Part shown: piece by piece, positions 6,348 to 57,495 of the stretch
Layout: every line of letters begins with the position of its first letter
Numbering within the stretch: the stretch's first letter is position 1
From: Cyanidiococcus yangmingshanensis
Taxonomy: Eukaryota > Rhodophyta > Bangiophyceae > Cyanidiales > Cyanidiaceae
Reading direction: 5' to 3'
Length of the DNA: 64,000 nt
NCBI GenBank assembly: GCA_013995675.1
Contig: VWRR01000014.1
Location: 1-64,000 of the forward strand
Made by a program: the position numbers and the translations under genes
The notes under the pieces: generated by a model
The model's input: the letters and a program-made list of their open reading frames with translations, nothing else
What the model was told of the DNA's origin: nothing
The model's database searches: none

Positions 6348-8159
6348 TCAGTCCCTATTGTCGCCCCGCCAGAGTGCCGTAACACGCTGGGCAATCTCTC
6401 GGAGTAAGCGTTCGAATATCCAGCGTTCCAGGTCAGGGTATGGCACGACTTTCGAGACTTCGCCCACAAATCCATTCATCAAAATCGTTCGCGCCTCATC
6501 CATTGTCGCGCCTCTACTCTGGATGTAGAATAACTCGCTCTCATCCAAGTGAGCTGAGGCAGCACCATGGGTGCACGCCACATCATCGTTCAGGACCTCA
6601 AGGAATGGCATCACATGCACACGAGCCCGGTCACTCAGGACAAGGCTCCGAATCAGTTGATGAGCATCCGTGCCATCAGCCTCTCGTTCAACGTAGATGG
6701 TACCTTTGAAAATAGCTGTGCTTCGGTCGACCACAAGGTTTTTCTGCAATTGACGTGATGCACACTGCGGCACGTGATGACCGATACGCACTTGTACATC
6801 CCCGAGCGCACGATTCTGAAGTAGCGTTAGACCGCTCACATTGCAGGACGCCTCGCGTCCGCAGAGGTCTACGCCAAGGACAATCCGCCGCAAAGCAAGC
6901 GAGTCTACATTCAAGTTGACGACTGAAATTGAAGAACCCTTCTCGCACCGCACCGATAAACCAGTCATGTAATAGATCCGGAGTTGTTCTTGGCGAATGG
7001 CTTCCGAAACTCCCTGCGAGCCCAGCACGCTCAACTTCAATGACGCTTCTGGTTCAAGATGCACGTTCACGCATTCATTCATGAGAGTTGCTGACGTATC
7101 GCTCTTTTCATGGCCTAGTTCCGACTCCAGAGGCACGAAACGCAATGAGACGGAGGCCAACGCTCCGTGATCAAGATACAGAATTAGTCGGGGATGTGCT
7201 GCCACACCAGCGTCTGCCATCTGGACGATTTCAATCATCTTGTCGGTTACACTCCCAGGAGGCAGATAGAGCACAAACACTCCGTCTCCATTAGCAGACA
7301 TGCCCAGATATGCATTAAGCAAGGAGAAAAAATCATTCACTTTCCCAATACCACTTGCGTAGTCGAGCGTCTTTGGTTCCTCACGGAACGGAACCACTCC
7401 TAGTCCAGCCTCAGGAGGCGCATTTCTCACAACTGAGACCAGGCGCTCTTGCAGCACAGCGTCCTTGCATGCACTCAGGTTGTCGGCGAAGGAACCCGAG
7501 GGTAAACACGATCGCTGGGAGTCCACGGAAGAGCTCAGTTCCGGAACTAGCTGACCGTGCAAAAACACAAAGCGCAAGCGCTCTTTCGTTCCATTTCCAC
7601 TCGGCTGACCGCAGATCGAGTCCGCCTTTGCCAGCGTGGCGCGCGCCAACTCAAGTTGCTCTGCTGCCAGCGCCTCTCGAAGGGTTCCCAGCTTGAACCT
7701 AGTCGCCAAAAGCTCACCAATGTCCGTGAAGCGCCAAGTTTCCATTTTGCGGTGAGGAAGTCGTTTTTCGCGGGCAGCGTTTTCCAGTCGCACAAGCGCT
7801 GCGCCACGCAGAGCAGCACAGCAGCCTGTCAGGCTACTCGTCGTTGGGGCCTGGGCCAACAGCGACTCCAGAAATGCAGAGCTCTGCCAAGTGCCAGTAG
7901 CCTGTACTGTCATCGACTGTCCTCCCTCTGCCGCCCTCGAATCATCTGACCCAGCACTCTGGTCGTTCCTACGCATATCAAGTCGCAATAGTTCCGACAG
8001 TCTGGGCTGACCGCAATGCCTCGAGGATCGCCGCCCAAACGCTGAGCGAGTCCTTGCAAAGGGTCGCTCGCCGCACACAGAGAGCTTTTCACCGCTCAAG
8101 CTCAATACTGGTGCGGCGAAAGCCATTTTTTTATCGAAGTTTGATTTGGATGCACTCAT
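6348..8159 (-). CDS. sufD: Fe-S cluster assembly protein SufD, plastid-targeted
   Basis: Component of the SufBCD scaffold that builds iron-sulfur clusters in the plastid. The 603-residue product has a long basic, Ser/Arg-rich N-terminus consistent with a transit peptide. The conserved N-terminal motif LPHRKMETWRFTDIG (134-148) and the C-terminal LEVLNDDVACTHGA and LDESELFYIQSRG are typical of SufD. The ATG at 8159 opens the frame; Met82 is an alternative but would shorten the leader. In red algae SufB and SufC are known to be plastid-encoded, so a nuclear SufD fits. SufS lies 20 kb away in the same window. Confidence 0.93.
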   Translation of the reverse strand: MSASKSNFDKKMAFAAPVLSLSGEKLSVCGERPFARTRSAFGRRSSRHCGQPRLSELLRLDMRRNDQSAGSDDSRAAEGGQSMTVQATGTWQSSAFLESLLAQAPTTSSLTGCCAALRGAALVRLENAAREKRLPHRKMETWRFTDIGELLATRFKLGTLREALAAEQLELARATLAKADSICGQPSGNGTKERLRFVFLHGQLVPELSSSVDSQRSCLPSGSFADNLSACKDAVLQERLVSVVRNAPPEAGLGVVPFREEPKTLDYASGIGKVNDFFSLLNAYLGMSANGDGVFVLYLPPGSVTDKMIEIVQMADAGVAAHPRLILYLDHGALASVSLRFVPLESELGHEKSDTSATLMNECVNVHLEPEASLKLSVLGSQGVSEAIRQEQLRIYYMTGLSVRCEKGSSISVVNLNVDSLALRRIVLGVDLCGREASCNVSGLTLLQNRALGDVQVRIGHHVPQCASRQLQKNLVVDRSTAIFKGTIYVEREADGTDAHQLIRSLVLSDRARVHVMPFLEVLNDDVACTHGAASAHLDESELFYIQSRGATMDEARTILMNGFVGEVSKVVPYPDLERWIFERLLREIAQRVTALWRGDNRD

Positions 8160-28118: not shown

Positions 28119-29636
28119 ATGTTCACTTTTAATTTTGTAAAAGGCGGGCTCGATCCTCGAGTCAGGAAACCAGATAGAAGGTCCGAAAATCTGGCGCCAA
28201 ACGGCATCCCAAGGGGCTCCTGGGTGAGTTGCTCGTACTGGGACACACGGATTCGGAGGCCTCGCAACGCGGTCTCACGACAGCACTGGTTTGTTGCCAG
28301 CCTACGCTCTACCGACGACCAGACTGACCTCACGAGAAAACATCGAAAGGGCGGAGAAATCTCTGCTCTGGACTTTGGATCTTTCCCCATTTTGGAGGAG
28401 AAGGATCACGAGGGAAAACGGATCGTCTACCTAGACTCTGCCGCTACGTCGCAGAAACCTATGCAAGTTATAGAGGCACTATCCGGATTCTATAAACACG
28501 ACAACGCGAATGTGCACCGTGGAGCGCATTTGCTATCACAACGAGCCACAGAGGCTTTCGAAAACGCTCGAGTGAAAGTTGCTCGATTCCTCAACGCAGA
28601 AAAAGAGACGGAGATCGTATTCACGCGCAATGCCACTGAAGCTATTAATACAGTTGCTTACGCCTGGGGGCTCATGGCCGGGAATCTCAAAACCGGGGAC
28701 GAAATAATCGTGTCCGTAGCGGAGCATCATGCCAACCTGGTCCCGTGGCAGCTCATTGCGAAGAGAACCGGCGCCGTGCTCCGCCATATCCCGCTGGATT
28801 CTGTGTCACAGACGCTTGATATAGAAGCGTTCAGGAAGATGCTTTCAGGAAAAACTAAGCTAGTAGCTGTGGCTTATGTTGGAAACGTTCTCGGCTACGT
28901 TCAAGACGTCAAACGGATAACAGAAATAGCGCATGAGGTAGGCGCATACGTTCTGATTGATGCCTGCCAAGCTGTGCCGCATATGCCAGTAGACGTGCAG
29001 GACATAGGGTGTGAATGGCTTGTTGCTAGCGGCCACAAAATGTGCGGCCCCACAGGGATTGGTGTTCTTTTCGGGAAGGAGCGTGTTCTGAAGAAAGAAA
29101 TGGCACCTTTCTTGGGCGGTGGAGAGATGATTGCGGAAGTCTTCCTGGATCATAGCACTTTTGCGGATTTGCCACACAAGTTCGAGGCCGGAACTCCCTC
29201 TATCGGCGACGCGGTAGCGTTTGGGGCCGCCATCGACTATTTGAACGAGAATCTTGGTGGCATGAAACATATTCATACTTTTGAGCATCAGCTTGGACTC
29301 TACTTGTATGAATCCCTAAGTCAGTTTCGGGAAGTAACCATCTACGGACCCCCCTGGCATAACGACTTGGGGCTTGAACGAGTAGGTTTGTGTGCCTTTA
29401 ATGTGCGGGGGATTCATCCGAGTGATCTGGCCACGATGCTGGACTTGGACGGTATCGCGATCCGTTCTGGTCATCATTGCGCACAACCGCTACATCGCGA
29501 CATCTTGAAAGTGAACGGTAGTGCCCGAGCCTCGCTCTATGTGTATAATTCCTCAGCAGACATCGATGCATTCACTGGCGCACTGGTTGAAGCAGTGGCT
29601 GCTCTTGGCGGGGAGCTGACGATCCGTCCTGCGTAA
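28119..29636 (+). CDS. sufS: Cysteine desulfurase SufS, plastid-targeted
   Basis: Group II PLP-dependent desulfurase that releases sulfur from cysteine for the plastid SUF machinery (EC 2.8.1.7). Conserved sequence starts near residue 95 ([20 protein letters not shown]), leaving about 90 residues of basic, Ser/Arg-rich leader consistent with a transit peptide. Motifs: [35 protein letters not shown] Lys307 in [12 protein letters not shown], and catalytic Cys454 in [11 protein letters not shown], the group II signature. The ATG at 28119 opens the frame. It pairs functionally with SufD at 6.3-8.2 kb. The closely related enzyme of the mitochondrial ISC system (NFS1) is group I and would look different. 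Confidence 0.95.
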
Positions 29637-41225: not shown

Positions 41226-43475
41226 TCACGAGCATTCACAGAAAAAGTCCGGGATTGGGAATATGGAGGCGTAGATGCGACGAAGAACAATATAGACGTG
41301 ATCGCGCAGCTTCTGGTTATCACAGGAAACTTCCCCACGCTTATGATCAATCAGTACAAGGGTATCATCAATTCGAATTCGGGATTCATCTGCTCCTGTG
41401 ATTTCAAGACATCCGAAGCGTTCGGCAAGCAATCTGCGCACTACACAAAGCTCACGCCCAAAGTCGAGACTGTCAGCGACTTCTCCGGGTGACTGATTCG
41501 ATCGGTCTGCAATCAGCGCTATTAGCGCATCGACAATTCCGTCTGCCTGGTACGAGGCATCCCACTCAAAAATGATGGAGCTCTCCTCAGAATGGGGCTC
41601 CACGCCAACGATACGTGCCTTCACAAGTCCCTGAATCGTGAGGGCTCGCTCATTTGGGAGGTTCTCCGTGTGATCTGCATGGACATGTTCGAATACGCAC
41701 CGGAGCTCAGCCTCAAACGCAGAGCATCCACCAACGTAGTGGAATGGTGCGACCAGCTTCTGGTGGATCTTAGCCGTTTTCACCGTCGTGTATTGCTCTA
41801 AATCCGACGGCTCAAGCAATGAATATTTGTAATCCCGTTTGAGCACCACGCCGGATACGCGTTGACCCATCTCTGGCCGAGTTTTTGCAAATGTGCCGAT
41901 GGCTTTTCCAACGACCTCGCCATGAAAACGCAGAAGGACCGACTTTGTGTTCTTCGGTGTGAAAATTCGCAACCGCTTTGTTTCATCACGACTGACGTCT
42001 TTCGCACGCATCGAATCGCGGACAGCACCCGATACAACGCCAGAAAGAGATACTAGATCGTCTTTGAGCGAATCGGGACTGGATTCCACTGCTTCTTTCT
42101 TCCTCAGCTCCAGCATGAAGAGCGGATGCTTCTGCTAACGCAACCTCTACGGTCGATTTCCGGTTGAATCTACTATCGAGTGCTTGAGCGAGGCGTTGCA
42201 TTTCAGTTTTTTCGCCATGCACAAGAATAACGTTCGAAGGCCGGCTCTGCTCGATGAAATCGCTGGTCTGCATGAAATCCGAATGTGCAGAAAAAGTTAT
42301 GTAGTCAATCGAACACCTAAGGGGAACCTGTTGTCCATCTAATCGCGGAATCGTCGCAGGATCCGTTAGAATGTATTTTGCCAAAGTCCCTTGAACCGAA
42401 TACCCAGGCAGAATAACTCCGTTGCGTCGATCGCTGCACCACTTCTCAAACAAACGACGGCTGGTGCCGGACTGCAACATGCCTGGAGACGCCATGAAAA
42501 CGCAAGGGCCCGCATCTTCAAATGTATCGAGCGAGCGAATATTCGTCACATATTTGAACGCGAAGGGATTTCCGAAGCGTCTATATCGCTGTTGAATATT
42601 CTGGTTCATTTGATGAATGTACGTGGAGTATATTGCCATGCACCGCTTCGCGATCGATGAAGAGTAGTAAATCGGGATTTCCTGAAGCTCCGGATGAGAA
42701 TCCCAAAACTCTTCAAGGATGAGGAGCAGTTCCTGTGCACGCCCGAGAGCAAACACCGGGAGTAAACAGCGACCCCCCCGCTTCACAACTTCAGCGACAC
42801 GTTGCGTGAAACGTCCCTCTCGGACTCGCCTCGGCTCGTGCACCTGCACCCCATAAGTAGACTCACAAATAAGCACATCGAGCTGAATGCCTCGAGGTAT
42901 TTCCGCTTCCATCAGATGCCTATCTTCTTGACGCGAAAAGTCGCCAGTGTAAAGGACATTCACTCCAGCAATTTCGACGAGAAACATGGCCGCTCCGAGC
43001 ACGTGTCCGGCATTGTATGCGCTGATACGCACTCCAGATATATCAATCTGCTGATGGTAATCAATACACTCAATCCGGGAAATAGTTTGATTCAGATCCG
43101 ACTCAGTGTAAAGTATGCCGGCATAGTCGGAGGAGCCAACTCGCACAAAGTCCCCTATTAAAGTTCGGTAGACCGCCTTCGTAGGATGTGTCATCAATAT
43201 TCTTGCTCTCGGATTCAAACTTGTCTGGGTGACCAGGTACGGCAAACCTGCACAGTGGTCGAGATGAAAATGGGTGATCAGAATCACGTCTATCTCGCTC
43301 GGATCGATCTCATCAAAAAAGGCAAGGCTGCTAGGCCCGAATAGGCAGGATGCACACCACAGTCAAAGAGAATGGTCTTCTTCTTGAACTTGAGCACTAC
43401 ACACGAGCGCCCTACTTCGGAGCCAGCACCCAGAGGTATCACAGAAAGCGTGTCATCGTCCAGGCTTCCAGGCAT
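41226..43475 (-). CDS. CPSF3: Pre-mRNA 3'-end endonuclease CPSF73 (Ysh1), two frame shifts
   Basis: Zinc-dependent endonuclease that cuts pre-mRNA before polyadenylation. The start is the ATG at 43475 (MPGSLDDDTLSVIPLGAGSE), followed by GRSCVVLKFKKKTILFDCG. Then comes the metallo-beta-lactamase HFHLDHCAGLPYL, VLYTGDFSRQEDRHLMEAEI, ICESTYG, the beta-CASP region and ILVHGEKTEMQRL. A third frame carries the C-terminal domain (VLLRFHGEVVGKAIGTFAKT, GQRVSGVVLKRDYKYSLLEP) to the stop at 41226. The first switch is in an A6 run at 43315-43320 (T6 on the coding strand): seven T would give ALPFFDEIDPSEID, exactly the family sequence. The second is near 42100-42120 (one extra base). About 750 residues. 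For an essential gene, sequence error is likely. Confidence 0.92.
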
Positions 43476-49733: not shown

Positions 49734-52639
<2,906 letters not shown>

Positions 52640-54520
52640 ATGAGCAAAGAAAGGGTCGCTTCGTCGAGGCGGAGAGTAGATCCCGACAAAGAACTGGCTT
52701 TACGCTTGTACAACGAGGAAAAAAGGAAACTTCGTCTTCTTCGCAAGCCGACCCAAAGTTTCGTTGAAATAAACAGAAATAAAAGTATCGAAGATGGAGA
52801 CTGCTCGAGCGAGCAAGTCACGGCGCTCGAGTCTTTTCTCGCAACTTGTTTGGGGAACCAACCAACCTCAAAAGGCTCGCGAAAAACAAAGCGGCGTTGC
52901 GTTGATAACGCATACGAACTTTTTGCTTCAAAACATCTAACTCAAATGAAGTGCAGATCCGAAGACTTTGGGCACTCTGGACGCGAACACTGTGACAGAG
53001 AGGAAATCTCGCTCTATATCAAAGATCTTTCTGAGCTTTCCACCTCTGTCGGTACGGCGGGGAGCACACGAAATCGCAGAAGTTTTCGCAAGGAGCTGCG
53101 TGAGCAAGTTAAGCGCCTGAACGAGGGCTTCTATATCAACTGCGATATCCGCTATTTCAATCTTTTTTACCTTCGTGAGTGCGTTGGGAACTTTGATGTC
53201 GTTCTTATTGATCCGCCCTGGCGTATCGCGGGGGGCCAGAGAACCAGCACCCCCAATGGGCCAATGTTCACCAATAATCAATGGGCTGTCAATTACCAGA
53301 CCCTTTCAAATGAGGAAATTTTAGACCTTGATGTGGGCTGCCTCTCAAACAGCGGTTTGTGCTTCATCTGGGTGGTATCATCCCAGTTACCAACTGGGAT
53401 GGAATGTCTCCACCGCTGGGGCTACGAATATATAGACAAAATCACCTGGGTCAAGAAACGACGAGGCAAGCTGCACGTGAGCCACGGCTACCACTTTATG
53501 CATTCATCTGAGATTTGTCTTATCGGGATCAAGAGGCCCTGCGAATTCATTGGGAAGGTCTCGAACGACGTGATATTCGCTGAAGTGCGAGAGAAGAGCC
53601 GAAAACCAGATGAATTGTACCACATCATCGAGGCTATGCTGCCGGGTACAACGAAGATCGAGCTGTTCGCCAGAAACCACAATCTTCGCAAGGGCTGGTT
53701 AAGCCTGGGGAATGAACTTGGTGAACAATTTCGCGACTGGTTTAACGAGTTCGAGTGTGACATGTGTGGAGCAGCCATACTCATCGGCGAAAAACGTTAC
53801 AAATCGAGATGCCAATCGAATTCAGACTTTTGTAGCAACTGCTACAGACAAGCTATAGATGCTGGTGTGACTGAAGCCGCCGAGTGGTTCGAGCTTGCCA
53901 ACGACTCTACCGAACCCATCTATCATGAATACTATGAGTGCAACCAATGTCGCGCTTATCCGTTATGGGGGGTCCGGTTCCATAAGGAATCAGACACGGA
54001 CTTGTGCGAGCAATGCTATGACGAGCTGTTAACATCTTTTGAAGGGACAAAGGCTCCCTCCAAACGCTCACCGAGCGAGTCAATGTCCGAATGGACTGCC
54101 ATAGAATCTCCAGTCTGTGGAGGGTCTTTGCCAGTTCACCGGAACATACGTTGCCAATCCTGCCTCCAGTGTCCAATTATTGGTTATCGCTTTGCATGCA
54201 CCCAATGCGAAAACGTAAGTTTTTGTCAAAAATGCTTTTTCGGTGAGAAGTGTCCCCGAGGGCACGGAGCAGACCATGATCTTGTGATCATCGTTGATTC
54301 TGAGGCGACTTTGAACGGATTGATTCGATGCGATGGCTGTGGCACCCGCCCCATTTTGGGCAAGAGATACAAGTGTAACACTTGCTACGCCTTCGACCTT
54401 TGCGAGTCCTGCCACGAACGCATGCGCCGTGATGAGTTTGAGCCAGTGAAGGGCTCCCAAAGGAAGTTCGTTGAGCATAATCGCTCTCATACCTTTTCTG
54501 TGATTCATATTTCAAATTAA
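52640..54520 (+). CDS. MT-A70 (METTL3-like) N6-adenine methyltransferase fused to ZZ zinc fingers
   Basis: 626 residues from the ATG, one uninterrupted frame. Residues 165-362 form an MT-A70 domain: INCDIRYFNL, FDVVLIDPPW (catalytic DPPW at 191-194), LCFIWVVSSQ, GYEYIDKITWVKK, HSSEICLIGIKR, FAEVREKSRKPDELYHIIEA and KIELFARNHNLRKGWLSLGN. This follows METTL3 closely, and a catalytic DPPW argues against the inactive METTL14 type. The C-terminal part has four cysteine-rich modules: ZZ-like fingers at about 373-405 and 434-459, and two good ZZ domains at 505-546 (CQSCLQCPIIGYRFACTQC) and 564-617 (CDGCGTRPILGKRYKCNTCY, ending in HNRSHTF). The METTL3 N-terminal CCCH fingers are not seen. Substrate, RNA (m6A) or DNA (6mA), cannot be told. 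ZZ domains in other proteins bind histone tails, so chromatin targeting is a reasonable inference. Confidence 0.93.
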   Translation: MSKERVASSRRRVDPDKELALRLYNEEKRKLRLLRKPTQSFVEINRNKSIEDGDCSSEQVTALESFLATCLGNQPTSKGSRKTKRRCVDNAYELFASKHLTQMKCRSEDFGHSGREHCDREEISLYIKDLSELSTSVGTAGSTRNRRSFRKELREQVKRLNEGFYINCDIRYFNLFYLRECVGNFDVVLIDPPWRIAGGQRTSTPNGPMFTNNQWAVNYQTLSNEEILDLDVGCLSNSGLCFIWVVSSQLPTGMECLHRWGYEYIDKITWVKKRRGKLHVSHGYHFMHSSEICLIGIKRPCEFIGKVSNDVIFAEVREKSRKPDELYHIIEAMLPGTTKIELFARNHNLRKGWLSLGNELGEQFRDWFNEFECDMCGAAILIGEKRYKSRCQSNSDFCSNCYRQAIDAGVTEAAEWFELANDSTEPIYHEYYECNQCRAYPLWGVRFHKESDTDLCEQCYDELLTSFEGTKAPSKRSPSESMSEWTAIESPVCGGSLPVHRNIRCQSCLQCPIIGYRFACTQCENVSFCQKCFFGEKCPRGHGADHDLVIIVDSEATLNGLIRCDGCGTRPILGKRYKCNTCYAFDLCESCHERMRRDEFEPVKGSQRKFVEHNRSHTFSVIHISN

Positions 54521-55120: not shown

Positions 55121-55942
55121 TTATGAGATTTCCGAGCCCTCGTTCGTTACTCTTTTTTCGATGGGTTCGTGTGGTGATCCTCGTTTGATGGCGTCCACGT
55201 TACTGGCACGAAGAAATCGAGGCAGATGCTGGCGTTTCAGGGTCCACGTCGCCACCTCACCATCTCTGACTGTTTCGAAAAAATCGTTGAGCGAAAGTAC
55301 GTGCCGAACTGCGCTTTTGATCCACATATGATCATTGACGTTCGGGTGCATTTCGAATACTCGATCCAGAATAGTTTCATACGGCATCCGATGTTTCTCG
55401 GCCGATGCCAGCAGCTCTCCAAGGAAGACAGGGAGGTCAGTCATGAGCCGCTGAGAGACCTTGCTTTCTGCCAAACGGCCGCGATGCTCCGTTAATTCTC
55501 CTTGTTGAGTACCTAGTAGAGTCCTCTGTTGCAGGTCTGGACCATAGAGCCGCTTTTTCTTCCGGGGGCCGTCTCCTTTCGAACACGGTAACAAGAACCA
55601 AAGTGTGCACGAACCCGCCTGAAGTATATCCTGGCTTCGAAGCTGGACTGGAACACCGTTCGGGCGAACCACAGTCCCGTTTACTTCCATGCCATTTTTA
55701 CCGTGGACGAAGAGTTCAAACCCTTGTAGATCCACGTTTAAAGCTATCGTAGCGTGAGCACGTGAAACCGAACGGTCTCGGGCAGGTAACCACACCGAAG
55801 ACTCGGAGGAAATCTCAGAAGATTTGTTACTGCTCCGGCCTATCGTCAATACAGGTTTCGTCATGTAATGCCACTGGGTTTCAGATATGATTTTTGCATA
55901 GAGAATTGAGGGCCTCACTGGGAATTCTGGATACTGCGACAT
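55121..55942 (-). CDS. FHA domain protein with C-terminal forkhead-like winged helix
   Basis: 273 residues from the ATG at 55942. The N-terminal FHA domain (about 12-115) reads LYAKIISETQWHYMTKPVLT, IGRSSNKS, DRSVSRAHATI and ELFVHGKNGMEVNG, matching the phosphothreonine-binding FHA of the Fkh/FHL1/plant FHA2 group. The C-terminal part (about 165-240) includes WIKSAVRHVLSLNDFFETV and ATWTLKR, reminiscent of the WxNSIRHNLSLNxxF...W core of forkhead DNA-binding domains. A nuclear transcription regulator is likely, possibly in the role of yeast Fhl1. The winged-helix call is by eye and weaker than the FHA call. It is divergent from ALG6 with only 32 bases between start codons. Confidence 0.8.
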   Translation of the reverse strand: MSQYPEFPVRPSILYAKIISETQWHYMTKPVLTIGRSSNKSSEISSESSVWLPARDRSVSRAHATIALNVDLQGFELFVHGKNGMEVNGTVVRPNGVPVQLRSQDILQAGSCTLWFLLPCSKGDGPRKKKRLYGPDLQQRTLLGTQQGELTEHRGRLAESKVSQRLMTDLPVFLGELLASAEKHRMPYETILDRVFEMHPNVNDHMWIKSAVRHVLSLNDFFETVRDGEVATWTLKRQHLPRFLRASNVDAIKRGSPHEPIEKRVTNEGSEIS

Positions 55943-55974
55943 TACTCGACCAGCTCGCGAGTAAAGACGCAATC
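55943..55974. promoter_or_regulatory. Ultra-short divergent intergenic region
   Basis: 32 bases separate the ATG of the FHA gene (55942, minus) from the first in-frame ATG of ALG6 (55975, plus). If ALG6 uses its next Met (56011) the gap is 68 bases. In either case at least one leader must be very short or begin inside the other gene. Confidence 0.55.
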
Positions 55975-57495
55975 ATGTGTCGCGCGGTACGATTAAGTGT
56001 GTACGAGTTCATGCCTTTCAACGCTTGTCATCGCTTTAGCAGAGCTCGAAGCCTTTGTCTGTGTGTAATTCTAGCGATATATTTGCGGGCAACAGTGAAT
56101 CTCTTTCCGTACTCTGGGGAGAACACTCCACCAAGATTTGGTGACTACGAGGCGCACCGGTACTGGAGCTCTGTAACACTTCACGTGCGTCCCGTTTCAG
56201 CGTGGTATGAAGCTTCGAAAGATCACTGGGTGATCGACTATCCACCGCTTTCCGCATACCTTGCTTTCCTCGTTGGCACTGCTGCAAAACATTTGGGCTT
56301 AGGAGAAGCAGTCAGTTGGCCTTCGTATGGCTATGAGTCTGAGGCAAGTCGGGCTTTCTTCCGAGCAACAGTTCTCTTTATTGAATCGCTCGTTTTTTTT
56401 CCTGCGGCATATGTTGCATCTGAGGGCGATCTATTTCGCTTTAGCTTTTTGACGCTGCTGCAGCCTTGCTGGGTCTTGATAGACCATGGCCACTTTCACT
56501 ATACATGCATACAGTTGGGCCTGCTGCTGTGGATGATCGCTTTTTACCGAACACACAAGGCTCGTGCGCTAACCTTTGCGGCACTTTACAAACAAACATC
56601 CCTGTATTTGATGCCTGTACCTGCTGCAGATGTTTTTTGGCAGCTAATGCATGGCGAGAGGCCTCTGGCCGACATTCTATGGGCGATGCTGTTGGGAGTG
56701 TTTGTCGTATATCCTTTTAATATCAGAACTCTACTCAAGCGAATATTCCCATTCGAACGTGGCGTCTTTGAGGATAAAGTGGCCACATTCTGGTGTACAA
56801 TCTCTCCGGCATTGCGACGCCTTGGTCTCTTGAAAAGCAGGTTATTGCCAGTCGCCTGCGGCGTTTTGACTGCTACCGCGATTTTCCCGTTTTTAGTTTC
56901 TGGATTTCCTGCCAACGCCAATCATTACGATCGTCAGCATTTATGTATCCGACTCACTGGTTGCGCTCTTTCGTTCTTTCTCTTTTCATATCATGTGCAT
57001 GAGAAGCATATTCTGCTGCCACTTTTACCTCTTTCAATGTGCGTTCGCGAGGAACCAACTGTTGTTCTCTGGACAAGTGCCACTGCCGCGCTTTCCATCT
57101 TTCCGCTCTTATTGAGAGAGGGCTCAGGGCTCGCCTGTGCAATACTAGTACTGTGGATGTGTTTGGCAATGAGTCAGAGACCAGCTCTAGTGTGGATGAT
57201 TTTCGCGCTCCCTCTAGTCACACTGCTTGCCTTTAACATGAACCCCCTCCAGGGGCGGTACCCTGACTTGCTCCCGTACTTGACCGCTGTGTTCTGTTTT
57301 CTTAATTTTCTTGCCCTGCTTGTCTGGTGTTACATCAAAAACGCTGAAATGGCCAGAGCGCCAAACAGCCTCGACCCGTTATTCAAGTTTTTTCAATTTC
57401 CTCCGCGCCTTGGGAGACGTTCAGGACGTAAACCCGCCGGACGCTCCTCGCTGGCACAACGACGAGCGAAAAACGCCGCTCTTGCCAGCAACTAG
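55975..57495 (+). CDS. ALG6: Dolichyl-P-Glc:Man9GlcNAc2-PP-dolichol alpha-1,3-glucosyltransferase ALG6
   Basis: ER multi-pass enzyme that adds the first glucose to the lipid-linked N-glycan precursor (EC 2.4.1.267). 506 residues from the ATG at 55975. Conserved luminal motif FGDYEAHRYWSSVTLHVRPV, then VIDYPPLSAYLAFLVG, GYESEASRAFFRATVL, VLIDHGHFHYTCIQLGLLLW, KQTSLYLMPV and RIFPFERGVFEDKVATFWC. These fit ALG6 better than the related ALG8. Many hydrophobic segments are consistent with about 11-12 membrane helices. The C-terminus is a basic tail (RLGRRSGRKPAGRSSLAQRR) encoded antisense to the end of the LSm gene. Confidence 0.88.
   Translation: MCRAVRLSVYEFMPFNACHRFSRARSLCLCVILAIYLRATVNLFPYSGENTPPRFGDYEAHRYWSSVTLHVRPVSAWYEASKDHWVIDYPPLSAYLAFLVGTAAKHLGLGEAVSWPSYGYESEASRAFFRATVLFIESLVFFPAAYVASEGDLFRFSFLTLLQPCWVLIDHGHFHYTCIQLGLLLWMIAFYRTHKARALTFAALYKQTSLYLMPVPAADVFWQLMHGERPLADILWAMLLGVFVVYPFNIRTLLKRIFPFERGVFEDKVATFWCTISPALRRLGLLKSRLLPVACGVLTATAIFPFLVSGFPANANHYDRQHLCIRLTGCALSFFLFSYHVHEKHILLPLLPLSMCVREEPTVVLWTSATAALSIFPLLLREGSGLACAILVLWMCLAMSQRPALVWMIFALPLVTLLAFNMNPLQGRYPDLLPYLTAVFCFLNFLALLVWCYIKNAEMARAPNSLDPLFKFFQFPPRLGRRSGRKPAGRSSLAQRRAKNAALASN

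Follow-up and report, generated by a model that had tools for sequence, protein, structure and literature searches.

Introduction

AMT2/5 is one of six ancient families of eukaryotic MT-A70 proteins, and its published hallmark is the combination of an MT-A70 domain with ZZ fingers at the C-terminus (PMC12695648, excerpt; PMC8265677). These fingers have been described as the exception of AMT2/5 among the MT-A70 families, and their function is stated to be unknown (PMC12695648, excerpt). A fungal tree, too, contains AMT2/5 as one of its subclasses (PMC8298701, excerpt).

TAMT-1 of Tetrahymena (TTHERM_00388490) is listed as AMT2 (PMC8265677). In vitro, a TAMT-1 fragment comprising the MT-A70 domain and the ZZ fingers is active as a methyltransferase on a GATC DNA probe and inactive on CATG and random-AT probes, single-stranded DNA being preferred about tenfold over duplex DNA; its activity is cut by mutation of the DPPW motif in combination with two other residues (PMC6245762, excerpt). 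Upon knockout of TAMT-1 37.8% of the 6mA was lost, and knockout of TTHERM_00136470 (AMT5), the second ZZ-bearing gene of Tetrahymena, left 6mA unchanged (PMC6245762, excerpt). According to a review, de novo 6mA requires both AMT2 and AMT5. It has been suggested that methyltransferases other than AMT1 make the first hemimethylated sites; AMT2 and AMT5 are not named there (PMC11760949, excerpt). Robust 6mA has been found only together with AMT1 (PMC12695648, excerpt).

Here we analyse a gene for an MT-A70 protein with ZZ fingers in a stretch of DNA of 64,000 nucleotides, which is referred to as the window. A preliminary description, made from the sequence alone, had presented its product as a METTL3-like methyltransferase of a layout that had not been described. 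This latter view does not stand, since the same fusion is already widespread and described, namely as the architecture of AMT2/5 (PMC12695648, excerpt; PMC8265677). The gene looks like an added member of a described, old layout, and the layout itself is not news.

Results

A single open reading frame joins an MT-A70 domain to four ZZ fingers

The open reading frame begins with an ATG and contains 626 codons without any internal stop (Table 1), which bears out the earlier observation that one unbroken frame joins the METTL3-like domain and the ZZ array. The closest upstream in-frame stop is located 16 codons from the ATG. When the window was subjected to 60 single-base shuffles, the longest stop-free run obtained was 252 codons. 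Between the MT-A70 match and C373, which is the first cysteine of the ZZ array, there are 13 residues (360-372). As far as the window shows, the gene is real and complete; an extra exon may be located further upstream of the ATG. An NCBIfam search of the protein gave no match. The N-terminal region, which contains 34 Lys and Arg residues and 24 Asp and Glu residues, matched none of the Pfam families when residues 1-158 were scanned alone, and therefore contains no CCCH finger. Its one predicted helix was modelled with a mean pLDDT of 90 over residues 21-30.

Table 1. Position of the methyltransferase gene and of the features of its product in the window. Residue numbers (aa) refer to the encoded protein.
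Feature	Coordinates	Strand	Evidence
Entire gene with its stop codon (626 aa in one open frame)	52640..54520	+	ORF list/translation
N-terminal region (aa 1-158), one confident helix at aa 15-34	52640..53113	+	No Pfam family; AlphaFold2
MT-A70 catalytic domain (aa 185-359)	53192..53716	+	Pfam 1.6e-36; MTA1/METTL3 matches; predicted METTL3 fold
DPPW catalytic motif (aa 191-194)	53210..53221	+	Motif position; invariant in the alignments
ZZ1 (aa 373-401), only the first set of zinc ligands; pocket residues D374 and D396 kept	53756..53842	+	28.0 bits
ZZ2 (aa 434-459), only the first set of zinc ligands; N435, D452, D454	53939..54016	+	31.8 bits
ZZ3 (aa 505-546), full ligand set; acidic pocket absent (Q506, N525, S527)	54152..54277	+	31.4 bits
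ZZ4 (aa 564-617), zinc ligands complete; D565 and D586 present, A584 at the third pocket position	54329..54490	+	37.6 bits

The catalytic domain resembles AMT1 and METTL3 to the same extent

The Pfam MT-A70 match covers the whole profile (1-172 of 172), and the DPPW motif is found exactly where the preliminary description had placed it. In a sequence search of the PDB, the top match was Tetrahymena MTA1/AMT1 (1.7e-37), with human METTL3 at about 3e-37 and weaker matches to METTL14 (about 1e-16) and MTA9 (4e-6). In BLAST comparisons, the domain scored 141 bits with both AMT1 (36% identity over 180 aa) and METTL3 (40% over 206 aa), the best score among 161 prokaryotic and viral relatives (see below) being 109 bits. 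The likeness to METTL3 that had been noted for the catalytic domain is matched by an equal likeness to AMT1. The earlier comparison with animal and plant METTL3 probably concerned the wrong paralogue.

MTA1 contacts SAM through D182, D209, S332, R357, N360, N370 and E371 (PMC9852454, excerpt). The window protein has identical letters at these positions, namely D169, D191, S320, R345, N348, N358 and E359, six of which were matched by alignment and one, D169 with D182, was paired by eye. With the same letters at the MTA1 SAM contacts, the enzyme should be catalytically competent, and methyl transfer from SAM should proceed via the DPPW motif.

A structure was predicted with AlphaFold2 from 63 rows, comprising the window protein and 62 of the 161 relatives. 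The 10-residue means of the confidence score were 80-98 across residues 171-360, with the exception of residues 201-220 and 281-290 (55-65). Over the ZZ array the prediction was poor, with means of 27-60 across residues 371-626. A Foldseek search with this model ranked METTL3 first and MTA1 18th, and all of the 50 matches listed were METTL3 or MTA1.

The protein groups with eukaryotic MT-A70 proteins

A search with an MT-A70 alignment gave matches in viral contigs and in bacterial and archaeal genomes, of which the best 80 of 577 and the best 80 of 549 were considered. An ORF with both motifs was present at 161 of the 164 loci, and the other 3 were dropped. Among these best-ranked matches, none of the 161 prokaryotic and viral relatives contained more than one CxxC (maximum 1) and, therefore, none of them looks ZZ-bearing, as is expected for a eukaryotic fusion. 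A search of viral and genome contigs with the whole protein confirmed no close relative. A tblastn search against phages returned 119 records, all with less than 60% identity, and among the 20 listed the query cover was at most 38%.

A maximum likelihood tree was built from 60 rows, comprising three eukaryotic ones (the window protein, AMT1 and METTL3) and 57 that were drawn randomly from the 161 prokaryotic and viral relatives. The three eukaryotic proteins were grouped apart from the 57 other rows with support values of 100/99, and a recent transfer of the gene from bacteria was therefore rejected. AMT1 and METTL3 were grouped together at 97/87 with the window protein outside, in a part of the tree where long branches meet, as the program warns, and where only two eukaryotic references are present. 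The tree contains no AMT2/5, AMT6/7, METTL14 or METTL4 row. Because of the long branches and the two references, the tree indicates a eukaryotic MT-A70 protein that appears to be plainly neither AMT1 nor METTL3, and no more than that. Its position outside the pair is one that a third eukaryotic family could occupy.

The array contains two complete and two reduced ZZ fingers

A ZZ domain holds two zinc ions in a crossed arrangement, in which cysteines 1, 2, 5 and 6 bind one ion, and cysteines 3 and 4 together with two histidines bind the other. Searches with the Pfam MT-A70 and ZZ profiles, which the preliminary description had proposed, found both domain types. The ZZ profile matched four stretches C-terminal to MT-A70 (E=1.6e-24), and each of these, when scanned singly, scored above the curated Pfam cut-off of 21.4 bits (Table 1). 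Six cysteines and a closing pair of histidines are present in ZZ3 (C505, 508, 520, 523, 529 and 532; H542 and H546) and in ZZ4 (C564, 567, 579, 582, 588 and 591; H613 and H617). ZZ1 and ZZ2 have cysteines 1, 2, 5 and 6 (C373, 376, 398 and 401 in ZZ1; C434, 437, 456 and 459 in ZZ2) and lack the histidine pair; of cysteines 3 and 4, ZZ1 has one, C391, and ZZ2 has none. This is in agreement with the earlier count of two good and two degenerate fingers. Judged by their ligands, ZZ1 and ZZ2 look like single-zinc versions of the domain, and the fold of such half-zinc fingers may differ from that of a full ZZ domain.

The nearest solved structures were BIG and HERC2, and also PRT1 and p62, for ZZ4, and dystrophin followed by HERC2 for ZZ3. 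ZZ2 was weakly RSC8-like, with a value of 0.00062 for the whole chain and no single significant stretch.

Residues used in histone H3 binding are kept in three of the four fingers

In the HERC2 ZZ domain, the N-terminus of H3 sits in a pocket formed by D2709, D2728 and D2730, and binding is abolished by either D2709A or D2730A (PMC9001736, excerpt). In ZZZ3, the pair D824/D848 is needed for H3 binding; in H3-binding ZZ domains the second Asp is present and the first place is taken by Asp or Asn, the combination of Asn and Asp being the form found in p300/CBP (PMC6138639, excerpt). Of the human ZZ domains that were tested, 9 out of 16 bound H3, and the introduction of acidic residues into non-binding ZZ domains conferred no H3 binding (PMC6138639, excerpt). 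The pocket residues are therefore not sufficient. The p62 ZZ domain binds N-terminal arginine (Nt-Arg), and a D147K mutation showed that D147 is needed there (PMC6197226, excerpt).

We took the residue after the first cysteine and the residues four and two before the fifth cysteine as the pocket positions, following the letters of HERC2. These are D374, N394 and D396 in ZZ1, N435, D452 and D454 in ZZ2, Q506, N525 and S527 in ZZ3, and D565, A584 and D586 in ZZ4. Hence, the minimal H3-reading pair of Asp or Asn with Asp is kept in three of the four fingers (D374/D396, N435/D454 and D565/D586), that of ZZ2 having the p300/CBP form, and it is absent from ZZ3 (Q506/S527). D565 and D586 of ZZ4 match D2709 and D2730, each of which is essential in HERC2, and A584 corresponds by spacing to D147 of p62. 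Judging from these residues, it is possible that the ZZ domains are chromatin readers.

The window contains further genes of eukaryotic type

There are 26 unbroken frames of at least 250 aa in the window, and scans of the window for tRNAs and with Rfam (gathering thresholds) gave no match. A tblastn search with 164 MT-A70 domain sequences detected no second MT-A70 domain in these 64 kb (best match outside the gene, E=0.024), and so the earlier remark that no separate METTL14-like partner is visible holds for the window.

An ORF adjoining the methyltransferase gene (55121-55972, minus strand) encodes an FHA domain and also matches forkhead weakly, at a score under the Pfam cut-off. The ORF at 55894-57495 (plus strand) encodes a glucosyltransferase of the ALG6/ALG8 type, which serves in the assembly of N-glycans (Pfam 3e-70; PDB 6snh, 5.3e-46). 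A TIP49/RuvB-like gene is located at 49734-51327 on the minus strand. The letters at the end of its 461-aa frame (49942-51327) look unrelated, and a stretch in another frame (49734-49982) resembles, by eye, the C-terminal part that is missing; the break may be due to an intron, a frameshift or an assembly indel. A CPSF73-like cleavage nuclease on the minus strand (41226-43287) is divided between two frames that overlap, the nuclease domains being encoded in 41986-43287 and the C-terminal domain in 41226-42116. ORFs for a SufB/D core protein (6348-8159, minus strand) and for a class-V aminotransferase that is SufS-like by eye (28119-29636, plus strand) both have N-terminal extensions. These extended SUF-type ORFs suggest a plastid-bearing host and, together with the TIP49, CPSF73-like and ALG6/ALG8 genes, they fit a photosynthetic eukaryote.

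Discussion

The protein combines an MT-A70 domain with an intact DPPW motif and four C-terminal ZZ fingers, each above the Pfam cut-off. We therefore regard it, with a probability of roughly 75%, as a catalytically competent AMT2/5 enzyme that is most likely a de novo writer of 6mA on nuclear DNA, and of which the ZZ array is a protein-binding module with the H3 tail as the best candidate ligand. The assignment to this family is made by layout and exclusion; counting against it are the equal nearness of the catalytic domain to METTL3 and AMT1 and the best fold match of the model, which is METTL3. Further points against our explanation are the inactivity of the TAMT-1 fragment on two of the DNA probes and the unchanged 6mA upon AMT5 knockout (PMC6245762, excerpt), as well as the finding of robust 6mA only where AMT1 is present (PMC12695648, excerpt).

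In the proposed mechanism, the MT-A70 domain would bind SAM and pass the methyl group to adenine through DPPW, with N6-methyladenine being placed on nuclear DNA as is done by the ZZ-bearing AMT2 of Tetrahymena. The enzyme would initiate methylation (de novo) and would not be the one that maintains it. By analogy with the described relatives, DNA is the most likely substrate and the de novo role the most likely one. The earlier suggestion that 6mA is a plausible product gains from the fact that an AMT2 of the same layout methylates DNA and that its knockout lowers 6mA (PMC6245762, excerpt). The free N-terminus of a protein, with the H3 tail as the best candidate, would be captured by ZZ4 and perhaps also by the half-fingers, ZZ1 and ZZ2, and the enzyme would thereby be brought to chromatin. 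A more specific proposal, which we consider rather unlikely, is that the array couples de novo 6mA to the H3 N-terminus, with ZZ4 and the half-fingers gripping unmodified or K4-modified H3 so that the first marks are placed beside promoter nucleosomes. If true, this coupling would provide a mechanism by which 6mA and H3K4me3 occur together across eukaryotes; it could be tested in a simple setting in an alga whose genome is compact.

A serious competitor, even if we give it less than an even chance, is that the ZZ fingers of this AMT2/5 enzyme are not chromatin readers, and that their ligands are N-degrons or other proteins, or that they serve only to hold a partner subunit. This is compatible with the first half of our explanation, the AMT2/5 enzyme itself. 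The solved structures nearest to ZZ4 belong to proteins of ubiquitin or autophagy pathways; one and the same pocket of the HERC2 ZZ domain serves both Nt-Arg and H3 (PMC9001736, excerpt), and 7 of the 16 tested human ZZ domains did not bind H3 (PMC6138639, excerpt). ZZ3 lacks the acidic residues, and the third pocket position of ZZ4 is an Ala where its p62 counterpart, D147, is needed (PMC6197226, excerpt). Against this stands the argument that a histone reader would be the more obvious gain for a DNA methyltransferase.

It is unlikely that the protein is a METTL3-type writer of m6A on RNA to which ZZ fingers were added independently. Its catalytic domain is as near to METTL3 as to AMT1, the model is closest to METTL3 in fold, and in a survey two MT-A70 proteins are given for Cyanidioschyzon, under the names MTA and MTB (PMC6576107, excerpt). 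However, C-terminal ZZ fingers are the mark of AMT2/5 (PMC12695648, excerpt), the absence of any Pfam family from the N-terminal region speaks against the CCCH fingers of METTL3 (MTA), and the tree, with its long branches, sets the protein outside AMT1 and METTL3. On these grounds METTL3 orthology was rejected as the first choice. Moreover, the Cyanidioschyzon row of the survey has dashes for FIP37, VIRILIZER and HAKAI, if the column heads are as can be told from the other rows (PMC6576107, excerpt), and the presence of a machinery for mRNA m6A becomes less likely if the window derives from an alga of this kind. In the same source the YTHDC reader was not found in Cyanidioschyzon, and all species are said to have a YTHDF member, with which the dashes in this row seem to be in contradiction (PMC6576107, excerpt). 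The excerpts of the red-algal papers PMC6576107, PMC12633428 and PMC8566409, a scope outside which most subscription papers fall, contain no mention of the window protein.

We consider it very unlikely that the gene encodes an AMT1-type (MTA1-type) maintenance enzyme to which ZZ fingers have been added, since the top PDB match to Tetrahymena MTA1 (1.7e-37) is offset by the equal BLAST score of METTL3 (141 bits) and the four ZZ fingers are at odds with an AMT1 type that has no ZZ array. Finally, that two genes were misread as one through an assembly error or a missed intron is hardly credible and was rejected, even though the frames of two further genes of the window seem to be broken, given the length of the open frame against the shuffle maximum, the short distance of 13 residues from the MT-A70 match to the first ZZ cysteine and the description of AMT2/5 proteins with the same layout (PMC12695648, excerpt).

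Eukaryotic 6mA is disputed, and with a ZZ-bearing algal enzyme it can be tested concretely whether histone tails are read by the enzyme that initiates methylation. The value of the present gene for such a test lies in its being a copy in an apparently compact algal genome with the pocket residues kept in three of the four ZZ fingers.

When compared with known systems, the protein resembles AMT1/MTA1 (PDB 7f4r, 7yi8) in its catalytic domain, which is 36% identical over 180 aa, and in the letters at the SAM contacts; it differs in that no ZZ array has been described for AMT1/MTA1, which works together with MTA9, p1 and p2 (PMC9852454, excerpt). With human METTL3 it shares 40% identity over 206 aa of the catalytic domain and, as judged from the model, the same fold. 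METTL3 has N-terminal CCCH zinc fingers and, to our knowledge, no ZZ domain, whereas the N-terminal 158 residues of the window protein contain no CCCH finger according to Pfam. The ZZ domains of HERC2, BIG, PRT1 and p62 have the cysteine pattern of ZZ4, in which two of the three acidic residues that form the HERC2 pocket are kept. These four are ubiquitin or autophagy pathway proteins, and we know of no MT-A70 domain in any of them. The closest likeness in overall layout is to AMT2/5, represented by AMT2 and AMT5 of Tetrahymena, which by their published descriptions also combine an MT-A70 domain bearing DPPW with several C-terminal ZZ fingers.
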